From Streptomyces sp. CC0208 (GTDB lineage: Bacteria > Actinomycetota > Actinomycetes > Streptomycetales > Streptomycetaceae): a DNA stretch of 64,000 nucleotides. The DNA lies in assembly GCF_003443735.1 (NCBI RefSeq), contig NZ_CP031969.1, positions 9,114,001 to 9,178,000 of the forward strand. The letters run 5' to 3'. Positions 51,254 through 61,811 of this stretch are shown here, piece by piece. The first letter of the stretch is position 1. Each line of letters begins with the position of its first letter. Made by a program: the position numbers and the translations under genes. Below the pieces are notes generated by a model. That model was not told the DNA's origin and made no database searches. It was given only the letters and a program-made list of their open reading frames with translations.

Positions 51254-53563
51254 GTGACGATCTCCGCAGGTCTTTCATCCTCAGGTACCCGTGTGCCCTC
51301 TCCCTCCGCGGAGCCGGTCACCCGTCCGACGCCTTTCGGCACGCCGCATCCTTCTGCAGGCCTCGAATGGTGGTATCTCAACGGGCATCTGAGCGGTGCT
51401 GACGGCCGGGAAGCCCATTGGATGATCATCATCATCCGGCATGAGGCACTGCACGACCCGGGAGCCGAGCCAGGGTACTTCTGCGCGTTCACCTGCGACG
51501 GGGATCCAGGCGTGTTCTCGGGAAGCTGGGTGAGTCCGGCCGGCCTCGGCGTACTGCGGGATGCGCACAGTGGTGATCTGGTTGAGGACACTCAGTTGCG
51601 GGCTGCTCTCTTGGAGGTTCTCGCTGAGGGCGTGCCGCTGCCCGACCGGCTCATCGAGGAGCCGGTGCGAAGCAGTGACACCGTGCTGGATATCGCTCTG
51701 GGGGAGTTGGGGGCGCTTTTTCGCAGCGAGAGCGGGGGCTACCGCCTGAGCTTCCACGGTGGGGGACTGCCGCAGCTTGACCTTGAACTCATTCCGAAGA
51801 AGCCCTCTGTGGCGCAGTTCCACGAACACGGCCAAATGAGCGGGCGGTTTCCCGACGGAGGAGACACGCAGACCACACGCATTTTGCCGCGGTTGGATGC
51901 GCAGGGAACAGTGACCTATGCGACTGGCGAGCAGGTCGCTATGCAGGGGCAGGCGTGGTTCGAAAACACCTGGGGTGGCGCGATGGGACGTACCGAACGT
52001 CGCAAAAGCGCGGGTGACCTTTCGTGGGAATGGGCCGGCGTCCAGTTGGACAATGGCTGGGAGATCAGTGCTCTGCAAAAGTACGTGGCAGACGTCGTCA
52101 CCGGCTCACAGCGGGACCAGGTCATCGTAGCCACAGCGGTCGCCCCGGAGGGGAGCGTCGCCCATCATGAAATGATCTGGCAGCCCCTGCGTCACTGGAC
52201 GTCCGCAGCCACGCTCAACACGTTCCCCACCGCGGTCCGCTTTCGCATCCCAGCACTCGACATGGACCTCGAAGTCACCGGACCTGCCGACGGACACGAG
52301 ATCCGCACCCTCATCGCCGGCAGCGGATGGTGGGAGAGCCCGGCGATCGTAACGGGCACCATGGGCGGGACTCCTGTCCGCGGCCAGGCGTTCCTGCAGA
52401 CACTCCCGGTCGGTACCATCGACAACATCAGCAGCGTCACGCGTCGCGCCTTTGCCATCGCCCGCGACGAGGCCGCCGCCGTCTACCCGAGCAGTCCCAG
52501 GAGCGCACTGGCAGCGGTGACCGGTACTGAGCAGGGCCCGCCACTCGATACTTCGACGCAGGACCGGCTCCACGAATCGCTCGTGCAGCCGGTGCGCATG
52601 CTCCTTGACGCACCTGGCCGGGCCTGGCGGCCATACACGGCCCTGTCCGTCCTGTGTCTGTTCGGCGCCGACCCGGAACCCTACCGGCCCCTGGCCGCCC
52701 TGACCGAGCTGCTGCACACCGCCTCGCTGATCATCGACGACATTCAGGACGGCTCCCCGCTGCGGCGCGGCCGCGCCACCGTCCACGAAGTCATCGGGAC
52801 CCCGGCTGCCATCACTGCAGGAACCGCAGCCTTCTTCGCCTTCGAGCCTCTCCTGCAGCGCATCCCCCAGCACGATCCGGCCACCATGCTGCGCGTATAC
52901 CAGCTGTGCCTGCGCGCCTTACGCGCAGGGCATGCGGGCCAGGCGCTGGACCTCTCCTCGCACCAAGCGGCCTTTGATCATGCCGTCACCACCGGCGACA
53001 ACCGTCAGCTGCTCGCGGACATTCGCACCACGCACCGGCTGAAGTCCGGCGTGCCGGTTCGCTGCATCGCCGAGGTCGCGGCGGTGCTGGCCGACGCCGA
53101 TGAGGCTCAGATCCGGGCCGTCGGCGACTACTTCGAAACGGTCGGCATCGTCTACCAGATCAGCGACGACGTCGCAGACTTGGACGGGGTGAGCACAGCC
53201 CAGGACCGTCGTCAGGGCCGGACGGCCAAGCGTCCGGCAGAGGACCTCCTCAACGGCAAGGTCACCTACCCCGTCGCCCATGCCGTCGCGCGGCTGGACC
53301 AGGCGGACCGGTTCCGGCTGCGCGACGCCCTGCGCCTGCGTACACCCGCGGGAGCCGCCCAGGCCGCCGAACTCCTGACCCACAGCGGATCTCCGCAGAT
53401 CTGCCTGGAAGACACCCACGACATGATGACTCGTGCCTGGGCTGCACTGGCGCCTGTCCTGCCACCCACGCAGCACAAGGCGCTGATCTGTGCCTTGGGC
53501 TGGTACGCCGCCCAGCGGATCCCCGACCAGGCCGGTCCGGACGCCGAAGAGGACGCGCGGTGA
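51254..53563 (+). CDS. AttH/CrtC lipocalin-like domain fused to an isoprenyl diphosphate synthase
   Basis: A 769-residue two-domain protein. Residues 20-400 resemble the AttH/hydroxyneurosporene-synthase (CrtC) lipocalin-like family: GLEWWYLNGHLSGADG, GQAWFENTWGG, LSWEWAGVQLDNGWEISAL, GWWESPAIVTGTMGG. This fold includes carotenoid hydratases and pericyclases such as fungal Diels-Alderases. Residues 430-740 are a trans-isoprenyl diphosphate synthase with both aspartate-rich motifs: DDIQD (495-499) followed by RRGRATVHE, and DDVAD (638-642) in QISDDVADLDG. All catalytic aspartates are kept. GTG start at 51254, weak ribosome site. Its stop overlaps the ABC ATPase start. Probable role: make a prenyl diphosphate and modify or cyclise the product in one polypeptide. 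Confidence 0.88.
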   Translation: MTISAGLSSSGTRVPSPSAEPVTRPTPFGTPHPSAGLEWWYLNGHLSGADGREAHWMIIIIRHEALHDPGAEPGYFCAFTCDGDPGVFSGSWVSPAGLGVLRDAHSGDLVEDTQLRAALLEVLAEGVPLPDRLIEEPVRSSDTVLDIALGELGALFRSESGGYRLSFHGGGLPQLDLELIPKKPSVAQFHEHGQMSGRFPDGGDTQTTRILPRLDAQGTVTYATGEQVAMQGQAWFENTWGGAMGRTERRKSAGDLSWEWAGVQLDNGWEISALQKYVADVVTGSQRDQVIVATAVAPEGSVAHHEMIWQPLRHWTSAATLNTFPTAVRFRIPALDMDLEVTGPADGHEIRTLIAGSGWWESPAIVTGTMGGTPVRGQAFLQTLPVGTIDNISSVTRRAFAIARDEAAAVYPSSPRSALAAVTGTEQGPPLDTSTQDRLHESLVQPVRMLLDAPGRAWRPYTALSVLCLFGADPEPYRPLAALTELLHTASLIIDDIQDGSPLRRGRATVHEVIGTPAAITAGTAAFFAFEPLLQRIPQHDPATMLRVYQLCLRALRAGHAGQALDLSSHQAAFDHAVTTGDNRQLLADIRTTHRLKSGVPVRCIAEVAAVLADADEAQIRAVGDYFETVGIVYQISDDVADLDGVSTAQDRRQGRTAKRPAEDLLNGKVTYPVAHAVARLDQADRFRLRDALRLRTPAGAAQAAELLTHSGSPQICLEDTHDMMTRAWAALAPVLPPTQHKALICALGWYAAQRIPDQAGPDAEEDAR

Positions 53564-54270
53564 CCAGCACGCCGGCCGACGATCCTGTCACCGCATCGCA
53601 CGGTAAATCCAGCGTGGGGAGCACCGAAGGGAAGCCAGCCACGGGCGCATCGGGACGCGGGGCCCGGTTGACGCTGGAAGAGGTCTGGAAGTCCTACGGG
53701 CGCCGACCGGTACTGCGCGGTGTCGATCTCGTCGTGCCGGCGGGCGCCCTGGTGGGCATCGTGGGCGAGAACGGGGCAGGCAAGACCACTCTGCTCCGCA
53801 CCGTGATCGGCGAGTTGGTACCAGATCGAGGAAAGGTCAACCGGGTCGGCGAGGCGGGGTACTGCCCGCAGGAAGCCGTGGTCAATCCACTGCTGAGCGT
53901 GGCCCAGCACCTAGAACTCTTCAGGGTCGCCCACGAGCTGGCGGACGTGAAGAGAGCCCGGGAGCTGCTGGCCATACTCGGCTACGCCGAGCCGCTCGAG
54001 CAGCGAGTCGGGACACTGTCGGGCGGAACCCAGCAGAAGGTCAATCTGGTCCTGGCCCTGATGCACGATCCTCCGCTGCTGGTCCTGGACGAGCCCTACC
54101 AGGGCTTCGACTGGCACACCCACGAGCGGTTCTGGGAGCTCGCCCGGCACCTTAAGGAACGCGGCCAGTCCATCGTCGTCGTCTCTCACCTGATCCATGA
54201 CTTGGCACATTTCGACACCGTCCTCGAATTGCGCGACGGCAAGCTGCACCAGGGGGTCTCGACGGCATGA
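53560..54270 (+). CDS. ABC transporter ATP-binding protein
   Basis: A 236-residue ATPase. Walker A is GENGAGKTT (69-77), the signature LSGGTQQK lies near 154, and Walker B LLVLDEPYQGFD near 172; the H-loop is VVSHLIHD. The first 35 residues are a loose extension. Its GTG overlaps the fusion gene's stop and its own stop overlaps the permease ATG, so the three genes are made together. The ABC-2-type partner suggests export. Confidence 0.9.
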   Translation: MTSTPADDPVTASHGKSSVGSTEGKPATGASGRGARLTLEEVWKSYGRRPVLRGVDLVVPAGALVGIVGENGAGKTTLLRTVIGELVPDRGKVNRVGEAGYCPQEAVVNPLLSVAQHLELFRVAHELADVKRARELLAILGYAEPLEQRVGTLSGGTQQKVNLVLALMHDPPLLVLDEPYQGFDWHTHERFWELARHLKERGQSIVVVSHLIHDLAHFDTVLELRDGKLHQGVSTA

Positions 54271-55100
54271 CACGTGGATCTGTGAAGTGCTTGACGGCGC
54301 TGCGGTTCACCGTCGCCGCTCACCTCCGCAACCGGCTGGCGTTGGTGCTGGCCATCACGTTCGTCCCCACGTGGATCCTCGTAGTACGCGCGTGTGCGTA
54401 CGGCGCAACGCTGCACTTCCATGAACACGCCGCGGGCGGGATCATCGCCGCCAGCAACAATCGTGTGACGCAGGTCAACAGTGCCCTGAATGCGGTGACG
54501 GTGATCACCGGATTCATGATGTTCATGGAGGCGTTCAAGTCCGGTCCCCTCGACCGCCGTCTCGTCCTGGCCGGGTTCCCGCGCCGCTACCTGATGGCGG
54601 GCAGGGTCTTCGCTCTCGTTGTCGTCGCCGCCGTCCTCGCCGTGTACACGGCAGGACTCCTGGAGCTCTCGTGGCATCAAGACCAGTTCGGCGCGCTGGT
54701 TTTGGCTATCTTCGCGGCGAACACGGCGTACGGAGGGATCGGGCTCCTGCTGGCCACCCTACTCCGCGGCGAGCTCGAGGGCTTCTTCGTGATCATCATG
54801 CTCAGCCTTATGGACGCCGCACTGCAAAACCCCGGCATGAACCCCCTCGCCAACCAATGGGGCCTGCGATACGTACCGATGTACACCGCCTCCCAATCCG
54901 CCTACGCCGCCTCCTTCACTCACGTATGGCCAGGCAGCTACCTAGCCGGAGGCCTGGTCTGGTTCATAGGGTGTGCAGCAGGGGGCCTGCTGATCTTCGC
55001 GCTGCGAACCCATTCCTACCGCCGCTCTTCCACCCACGTGGGGCCACGGCAGACTCCCGCGAACAGGCGTCGCGACCCTGTCCGGCTTCGAGTGCGATAG
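54267..55100 (+). CDS. ABC-2-type transporter permease
   Basis: A 277-residue membrane protein with about six hydrophobic segments (for example LVLAITFVPTWILVVRA and VFALVVVAAVLAVYTAGLL) and a Arg-rich C-terminal tail. It is the membrane half of the transporter with the ATPase upstream. The partner fusion protein suggests that the cargo is a terpenoid or prenylated compound, by inference. Confidence 0.83.
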   Translation: MTRGSVKCLTALRFTVAAHLRNRLALVLAITFVPTWILVVRACAYGATLHFHEHAAGGIIAASNNRVTQVNSALNAVTVITGFMMFMEAFKSGPLDRRLVLAGFPRRYLMAGRVFALVVVAAVLAVYTAGLLELSWHQDQFGALVLAIFAANTAYGGIGLLLATLLRGELEGFFVIIMLSLMDAALQNPGMNPLANQWGLRYVPMYTASQSAYAASFTHVWPGSYLAGGLVWFIGCAAGGLLIFALRTHSYRRSSTHVGPRQTPANRRRDPVRLRVR

Positions 55101-60851: not shown

Positions 60852-61811
60852 ATGGGGATATCCGTACGCCGGTCCGTGTCGCGGAGAGTGGCGAGTGCAG
60901 CCCTCGTGTGCGTGGTGCTCGGCGGAGGAGCGGGGGCCTGTGGGACGGGTGGCGAGAGTAGTTCCGGCAAGTCCGCGCAGACGTCGGCGCCGGCCCTGAC
61001 GCCCTCCGAGGCCGTGGCGAAGGCCGCGGAGGACTCCGCCGACATCACGTCCCTCCGTTACCGGATCACCGGATCCGTGCCGGATCAGGGCCAGTTGACC
61101 GTCGACGCGGCCATGAGCACGGCGCCGCTGTCCATGACCATGGAACTGACCATGGCGGACCAGCGCGCGAAGGGCCCGCTGAGCATCCGGTTCGCTGGCA
61201 AGGCGATGTACGTCGGCGGTGGCGCCCTCGACATCCGGAAGTTGGGGAGATCCGCGAACCTGGACCCGGACAAGTTGAACGGCAAGAGCTGGCTCCGCAT
61301 CGAGCCGGCGGCCTGGGGTCTCATCTCCGTGGACAACCAGTCCTACGGCGTACTGCCCCACCAGGTCGAGGGCAGCCCGATCGTCCAGTCCACGCTGCTG
61401 ACCGGCGCCAAGAACGCGAAGAAGATCGGGGCCGAGACGATTCTCGGCGCCCGCACCACGCACTACCGCGGAACCGTCACCTTCGACGGATTGCGGGCCG
61501 CCCAGGATGCTGCCACCGACAAGGCCAGCCGGGAACGCCAGACCCGCAGCCTCGACCAGTTCATCGCGCTGGAGCTCGACAAGAACCTCATCATGGATCT
61601 GTGGATCGACGACGACGGGCGCACCAGGCAGTTCCGCATGCGGGGCGCCACCTACAAGATGCCCGTCAAAGCCGGCGAAGAGCCGACCGTGGGCGATCCC
61701 GTCGACATGACCGTCGCCTTCCTCCGGATCAATGAGCCGGTCACCGTCACAACCCCGTCCGCCGGGGACACCACGGACGTGGGCGCCCTGCTGGACGCGC
61801 AGACCGGCTGA
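60852..61811 (+). CDS. Lipoprotein, LppX/LprG-like
   Basis: A 319-residue exported lipoprotein. The signal peptide ends with lipobox GGGAGAC, lipidated at Cys30, then a Ser/Gly linker. The mature part begins AVAKAAEDSADITSLRYRIT and has alternating strands (LSMTMELTMADQRAKGPLSI, WLRIEPAAWGL, YRGTVTFDGLRAAQDAA), matching the lipid-carrier-like fold of actinobacterial LppX/LprG relatives. Ligand unknown. ATG at 60852 has GGGGGA upstream. Intact, monocistronic. Confidence 0.78.
   Translation: MGISVRRSVSRRVASAALVCVVLGGGAGACGTGGESSSGKSAQTSAPALTPSEAVAKAAEDSADITSLRYRITGSVPDQGQLTVDAAMSTAPLSMTMELTMADQRAKGPLSIRFAGKAMYVGGGALDIRKLGRSANLDPDKLNGKSWLRIEPAAWGLISVDNQSYGVLPHQVEGSPIVQSTLLTGAKNAKKIGAETILGARTTHYRGTVTFDGLRAAQDAATDKASRERQTRSLDQFIALELDKNLIMDLWIDDDGRTRQFRMRGATYKMPVKAGEEPTVGDPVDMTVAFLRINEPVTVTTPSAGDTTDVGALLDAQTG

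Follow-up and report, generated by a model that had tools for sequence, protein, structure and literature searches.

The window analysed here, a 64,000-nucleotide stretch of the Streptomyces sp. CC0208 chromosome, contains a gene in which an AttH/CrtC-fold domain and an isoprenyl diphosphate synthase domain share one open reading frame (ORF), followed on the same strand by the two genes of an ATP-binding cassette (ABC) transporter. Comparison with relatives revealed that this fused architecture is genuine, widespread and old. As to its function, we propose that the protein is a bifunctional terpenoid enzyme of the assembly-line kind, served by its own exporter, a reading to which we would give about an even chance.

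The fused gene and its distribution

The elements on which the argument rests are the following (window coordinates; residues are those of the fused protein):

51254..53563, + strand: fused AttH/CrtC-fold and isoprenyl diphosphate synthase gene, 769 amino acids (aa), GTG start; same frame in relatives
51329..52408, + strand: AttH/CrtC-fold domain, approximately residues 26-385, two beta-barrels (Pfam, AlphaFold2 model, match to 2ich)
51956..51964, + strand: W235-F236-E237, at the CrtC catalytic-acid position Y266-x-D268 (profile alignment with six CrtC proteins)
52025..52033, + strand: W258-x-W260, at the CrtC W283/W285 position (alignments to CrtC)
52409..52543, + strand: helix-containing interdomain linker, residues 386-430 (secondary structure in models)
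52544..53518, + strand: trans-isoprenyl diphosphate synthase domain, approximately residues 431-755 (Pfam polyprenyl_synt; Protein Data Bank matches to solved synthases)
52736..52750, + strand: first Asp-rich motif DDIQD, residues 495-499 (alignment of 88 sequences)
53165..53179, + strand: second Asp-rich motif DDVAD, residues 638-642 (same alignment)
53560..54270, + strand: ABC transporter ATPase, 236 aa (Pfam ABC_tran; Walker A/B and signature motifs)
54267..55100, + strand: ABC permease, 277 aa (weak ABC2_membrane_3 match; hydropathy; conserved partner in Actinomycetota)

An earlier note, made from the letters of the window, had described a 769-codon frame joining the two domains, and Pfam supports both of them: the CrtC N-terminal lipocalin profile is found at residues 161-241 (39.3 bits, cut-off 22.5), Lipocalin_9 at residues 256-382 (45 bits, cut-off 26.2) and polyprenyl_synt at residues 441-705 (147 bits, E=6e-43, above cut-off). 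The 4-bp overlaps said to couple this frame to the ABC genes are both there, a GTGA at 53560 between the fused gene and the ATPase gene and an ATGA at 54267 between the ATPase and permease genes. On its 9.32-Mb chromosome, a single contig, the window is about 150 kb away from the end. That no other terpene gene is nearby also held true: a scan of the ten neighbouring ORFs gave none, and one has to go about 0.5 Mb from the fused gene to meet another synthase match in the genome.

One objection to such a frame is that two unrelated genes may be read as one, through an assembly join or by chance; the earlier note had proposed to check whether the domains are separate genes in relatives. We sought relatives in about 85,000 species genomes and obtained at least 80 loci. 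Among the matches listed, both domains are in one open frame at 79 of 80 loci, which come from independent assemblies, and the fused frame is also found on annotated S. canus and Tolypothrix plasmids; S. canus plasmid NZ_CP109336 encodes a relative of the window protein. The exception is an S. himastatinicus locus (L057) with a 468-aa frame in which the AttH part is broken. Nothing in support of a join was found, although one Streptomyces locus (L046) does hold separate AttH-like and synthase genes together. Since the same fused frame recurs in independent relatives, we rejected this explanation, the likelihood of which is practically negligible.

The taxa bearing the fusion are Actinomycetota, Myxococcota, Bacteroidota, Pseudomonadota (including Legionella quateirensis), Cyanobacteriota, Verrucomicrobiota, Acidobacteriota, a Clostridia metagenome-assembled genome (MAG) and Thermoplasmata MAGs. 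Single placements may be wrong, because many of the loci are MAGs; cultured strains with the fusion include Actinomycetota, Bacteroidota and Legionella. Within Streptomyces, an AttH match is present in 16 of 296 genomes and the full fusion in about ten. In a quick tree with several long branches, a single branch (SH-aLRT 96) sets the fused synthase domains apart from 11 unfused synthases. Distances between AttH domains and between synthase domains correlate across the family (r=0.95), as expected of a unit whose parts travel together, a correlation to which shared species history contributes too.

Apparently decayed copies were also seen, in S. himastatinicus (L043/L057, with a broken AttH part in L057) and on the S. 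canus plasmid NZ_CP107991 (L030), at whose end a synthase fragment matches residues 544-759 only. The separate genes of L046 (3236-9429) lie on one strand and encode AttH-like, cis-prenyltransferase, squalene/phytoene synthase, MMPL and isoprenyl synthase proteins.

The two domains and the proposed reaction

The AttH domain was modelled alone with AlphaFold2 from 71 sequences, with a mean predicted local distance difference test score (pLDDT) of 91.6; the full-length model, from 8 sequences, is mediocre (pLDDT 68). The nearest solved structure is AttH NE1406 (2ich; Z 33.9 over 299 residues, root-mean-square deviation 2.8, 20% identity). It is followed by kievitone hydratase (7a0q; Z 30.4, 14% identity), 25-phosphosteroid lyase (9g2i; Z 23.5) and the fungal pericyclases CghA, Fsa2 and Phm7 (Z about 23), while the next fold after these AttH-type structures reaches a Z of 10 only. 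The confident model thus confirms an AttH fold with two orthogonal lipocalin-like barrels, a fold to which the earlier note had assigned carotenoid hydratases and fungal pericyclases.

Lipocalin-type barrels commonly bind lipids. A single CrtC sequence gave no alignment to the family with hhalign, and residues were mapped by aligning six CrtC proteins to the family profile and by adding one to the family alignment. CrtC D268 then aligns with E237, and W283/W285 with W258/W260; the N-terminal part of CrtC, including W110, aligns unsurely. Position 237 is acidic in 81 of the 88 family sequences (D in 61, E in 20), and the two tryptophans are kept in 81 (W258) and 80 (W260). RgCrtC acts on C12-C20 terpenes, to whose terminal prenyl unit it adds water (PMC12402844; see also PMC4717167); in this enzyme D268 is the acid and W110, W283 and W285 stabilise the cation, the acid and the WxW pair being needed for hydration (PMC12402844). 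Judged by its residues, the AttH domain is hydratase-like in the acid and the WxW pair, but the complete set that defines a CrtC is not present. A carotenoid hydratase proper was rejected because H239, W241 and Y266 are not kept and because no carotenoid gene was found among the neighbouring ORFs scanned around the fusion.

The synthase domain has the hallmarks of trans-isoprenyl diphosphate synthases: both Asp-rich motifs, intact as the earlier note had read them, an RRG, and the active-site Gln and Lys. D495, D496, D499, R504, R505, Q563, D566, K597, Q635, D638, D639 and T671 are invariant in the alignment of 88 sequences, and the third Asp position of the second motif is D in 27 and N in 58 of them. 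With these residues the domain is likely to be active. Small residues shortly before the first Asp motif lead, in these synthases, to products of C20 or longer; the residues found there, A490 and S491, are small and would therefore predict a chain of that length. A family 2 encapsulin cargo polyprenyl transferase (NF041169) was rejected, the score being 116 bits where NCBIfam requires 450.

A prenyl synthase and a candidate chain-modifying domain thus stand in one polypeptide; what we infer is the activity, the chain length, the hydration or cyclisation by the AttH domain, the product and its export. In the proposed sequence of events, the C-terminal synthase would condense isopentenyl diphosphate and an allylic diphosphate into a prenyl diphosphate of C20 or more, and the N-terminal domain would receive the chain. 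E237, as general acid, would protonate the isopropylidene at the far (omega) end and the W258/W260 pair would stabilise the cation, which could be quenched by water to give a tertiary alcohol, as with CrtC and kievitone hydratase, or could undergo ring closure. Finally, the product, or something derived from it, would be carried through or into the membrane by the ATPase and permease. Of the two outcomes we favour hydration as the simpler guess, given that a hydratase and a lyase are the nearest enzymes with the AttH fold. Ring closure would mean an unrecognised bifunctional class occurring across many bacterial phyla and in Thermoplasmata, in which a synthase is joined to a proton-initiated beta-barrel cyclase that has a WxD/E motif for its acid and lacks the DxDD and DDxxD of known cyclases. 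This is conceivable, but we regard it as doubtful.

Several observations weigh against the proposal of an assembly-line enzyme with its exporter. The CrtC-to-family profile match is weak (probability 25%, E 8e-4), the window has Glu (E237) where CrtC has Asp, and H239, W241 and Y266 are replaced at the aligned family positions. The presumed catalytic acid is lost in three loci (L055, L064 and L074). The lysine of GKxT, K669 in the window, is T, E or R in many close relatives, including Streptomyces. In the loci examined outside Actinomycetota, no ABC pair of the window type lies beside the fusion, and no paper on an AttH-synthase fusion or its product was found in the open literature (a scope outside which lie most subscription journals and all of bioRxiv).

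Two alternatives draw on these points. One is that the AttH domain is a non-catalytic lipid-binding module, which keeps the chain shielded until the ABC transporter, a glycosyltransferase or the membrane takes it over, elongation being the sole chemistry. The lipid binding common among such barrels would suit it, as would the recurrence of transport partners and the three loci that lack the acid yet have an intact synthase. However, most of the 88 sequences retain D/E237 and the WxW pair, which goes beyond what a carrier needs, and among enzymes of this fold a hydratase and a lyase come closest; we consider a carrier unlikely. The other is that the synthase-like domain has turned into a class I terpene cyclase or an altered condensing enzyme. 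This would agree with the replaced GKxT lysine of many Streptomyces relatives and with the DDxxN found as second motif in most of the family, but the window protein keeps K669 and both DDxxD motifs, and the residues of the Asp motifs, of the RRG and of the GQxLD region vary little or not at all; such a change of function seems quite improbable.

The ABC pair and its isoprenoid neighbours

The earlier note had described the transporter as an ATPase with a six-transmembrane permease. The ATPase stands, with Walker A, the LSGG signature and Walker B all intact, whereas six transmembrane segments could not be upheld as such: simple hydropathy gives 5-6 hydrophobic segments, and the Pfam match is weak (ABC2_membrane_3, 17.4 bits, cut-off 31.6). 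With permeases located by tblastn, the pair was found directly downstream of the fusion and on the same strand in the window, in Nocardiopsidaceae (4/4) and in Glycomyces (1/1), and divergent and upstream at most Streptomyces fusion loci. Since the pair is kept through this change of gene order, a functional link to the fusion can be argued. The linkage of the fusion to an ABC pair, noted earlier for the window, is conserved in Actinomycetota, under two gene orders, but is not a feature of the whole family.

Members of the permease family are encoded by 73 of 296 Streptomyces genomes. Around such permeases, 20 fusion-free stretches of 16 kb were fetched, and 11 contain a synthase. Assuming 5 synthase matches per 9.3 Mb, about 0.9% would be expected per stretch, i.e. 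~0.2 in 20, bearing in mind that the 20 are high-scoring homologues and not all independent. Several of the synthase-bearing stretches also have UbiA or a squalene-hopene-type cyclase, others a squalene/phytoene synthase, or the synthase alone. At L157, which has the closest relative of the window's pair (permease 69%, ATPase 67%), the adjacent synthase is unfused and belongs to the sister clade. In Streptomyces, then, the pair recurs beside isoprenoid genes, and it may mark unrecognised terpenoid clusters.

Further combinations were noted among the Streptomyces ABC loci L157-L176: synthase with UbiA and squalene-hopene-type cyclase, and synthase with squalene/phytoene and undecaprenyl synthases. 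In the window itself, about 6 kb from the ABC genes, 60852-61811 gives a sub-threshold match to the lipid-carrier lipoprotein family LppX_LprAFG (19.6 bits, cut-off 24), which may or may not be linked to them. An Rfam scan of the window gave no match.

Known systems and other neighbourhoods

Fungi offer known examples of a prenyl synthase joined to a chain-modifying domain, PvCPS (class II cyclase with prenyltransferase) and PaFS (class I) (PMC8190136). The likeness is in the joining of a synthase to a second domain, in the window protein a putative chain-modifying one, and, for PvCPS, whose modifying domain is N-terminal and driven by protonation, in the N-terminal position of the partner, for which such an activity is here predicted. 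What is different is the partner, an AttH/CrtC beta-barrel instead of an alpha-helical cyclase, as well as the taxonomic range, prokaryotic over many phyla, and the exporter linked to the fusion in Actinomycetota.

Other relatives resemble one part of the system only. CrtC (PF07143) has in common with it the profile match above cut-off, the acid position and the WxW pair; the fusion differs by its synthase, by a second barrel (Lipocalin_9), by lacking H239/W241/Y266 and by having no carotenoid genes nearby. Kievitone hydratase, which turns a prenyl double bond into a tertiary alcohol by hydration (PMC5805349), has the same fold (7a0q, 7a0t; Z 30.4), but is a fungal, stand-alone enzyme acting on prenylated isoflavonoids, with 14% identity to the AttH domain. 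Like 25-phosphosteroid lyase, it acts on a tertiary carbon in a prenyl or isoprenoid side chain. AttH NE1406 (2ich), the closest solved structure, has ABC ATPases reported in its genome context (PMC2954199), but is likewise a stand-alone protein. Finally, unfused ABC-linked synthases of Streptomyces (L157, L029, L173) form the sister clade of the fused synthase domains and have the same ABC family alongside; unlike at the fusion, no AttH domain was found at these loci.

If the proposal is right, the fusion represents a terpenoid or lipid enzyme family of bacteria and archaea, present in about 80 species genomes here and filed as 'polyprenyl synthetase family protein', and would be the beta-barrel counterpart of the assembly-line synthases of fungi. 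Terminally hydrated or cyclised prenyl compounds, for which there is industrial demand (PMC12402844), could then be made by a single protein. Genome mining would gain two simple handles, a frame that holds both AttH and synthase, or the ABC pair linked to it. As to the earlier note's suggestion that genome-mining rules may miss such a pathway, one polyprenyl-synthase-anchored cluster overlooked by antiSMASH 6 is documented, that of gromomycin (PMC12105684).

Outside the ABC setting, glycosyltransferase genes adjoin or are near the fusion in Acidobacteriota, Cyanobacteriota, Verrucomicrobiota, Bacteroidota, a Clostridia MAG and one Myxococcota. In one case the two are fused in frame, on the Tolypothrix PCC 7601 plasmid NZ_CP064882 (L028, 12598-17124), where one protein of 1509 aa has four domains, in the order sulfotransferase, glycosyltransferase, AttH/CrtC and isoprenyl diphosphate synthase, with DevC-type ABC exporter genes nearby. 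In Microtetraspora, Nonomuraea pusilla and one Streptomyces, an MMPL transporter takes the place of the ABC pair. Such glycosyltransferase, sulfotransferase, MMPL and ABC partners fit a decorated, exported terpenoid or lipid.

At L038/L055 and L039 the fusion is divergent beside a large gene with AMP-ligase, polyketide synthase (PKS; ketosynthase-acyltransferase-ketoreductase, KS-AT-KR) and condensation domains, and an AMP-ligase is the neighbour at L040/L063. These PKS-nonribosomal peptide synthetase (NRPS) and AMP-ligase neighbours, together with the presence of the pericyclases CghA, Fsa2 and Phm7 in the fold, would suit another possibility, namely that the AttH domain is a hydratase or pericyclase for a different substrate (a prenylated polyketide, peptide or glycolipid) and that the fusion only supplies the prenyl donor. 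We find it rather unlikely, as the window and most loci have no such partner gene or prenyltransferase nearby. The suggestion of a complete minimal pathway in the earlier note is not established, several relatives being in larger contexts (PKS-NRPS, MMPL, glycosyltransferases). In Myxococcota, two families without Pfam match adjoin the fusion, one of ~600 aa (L085, 10367-12166; 13 loci in clustering) and one of ~200 aa (L081, 7184-7792; 9 loci).

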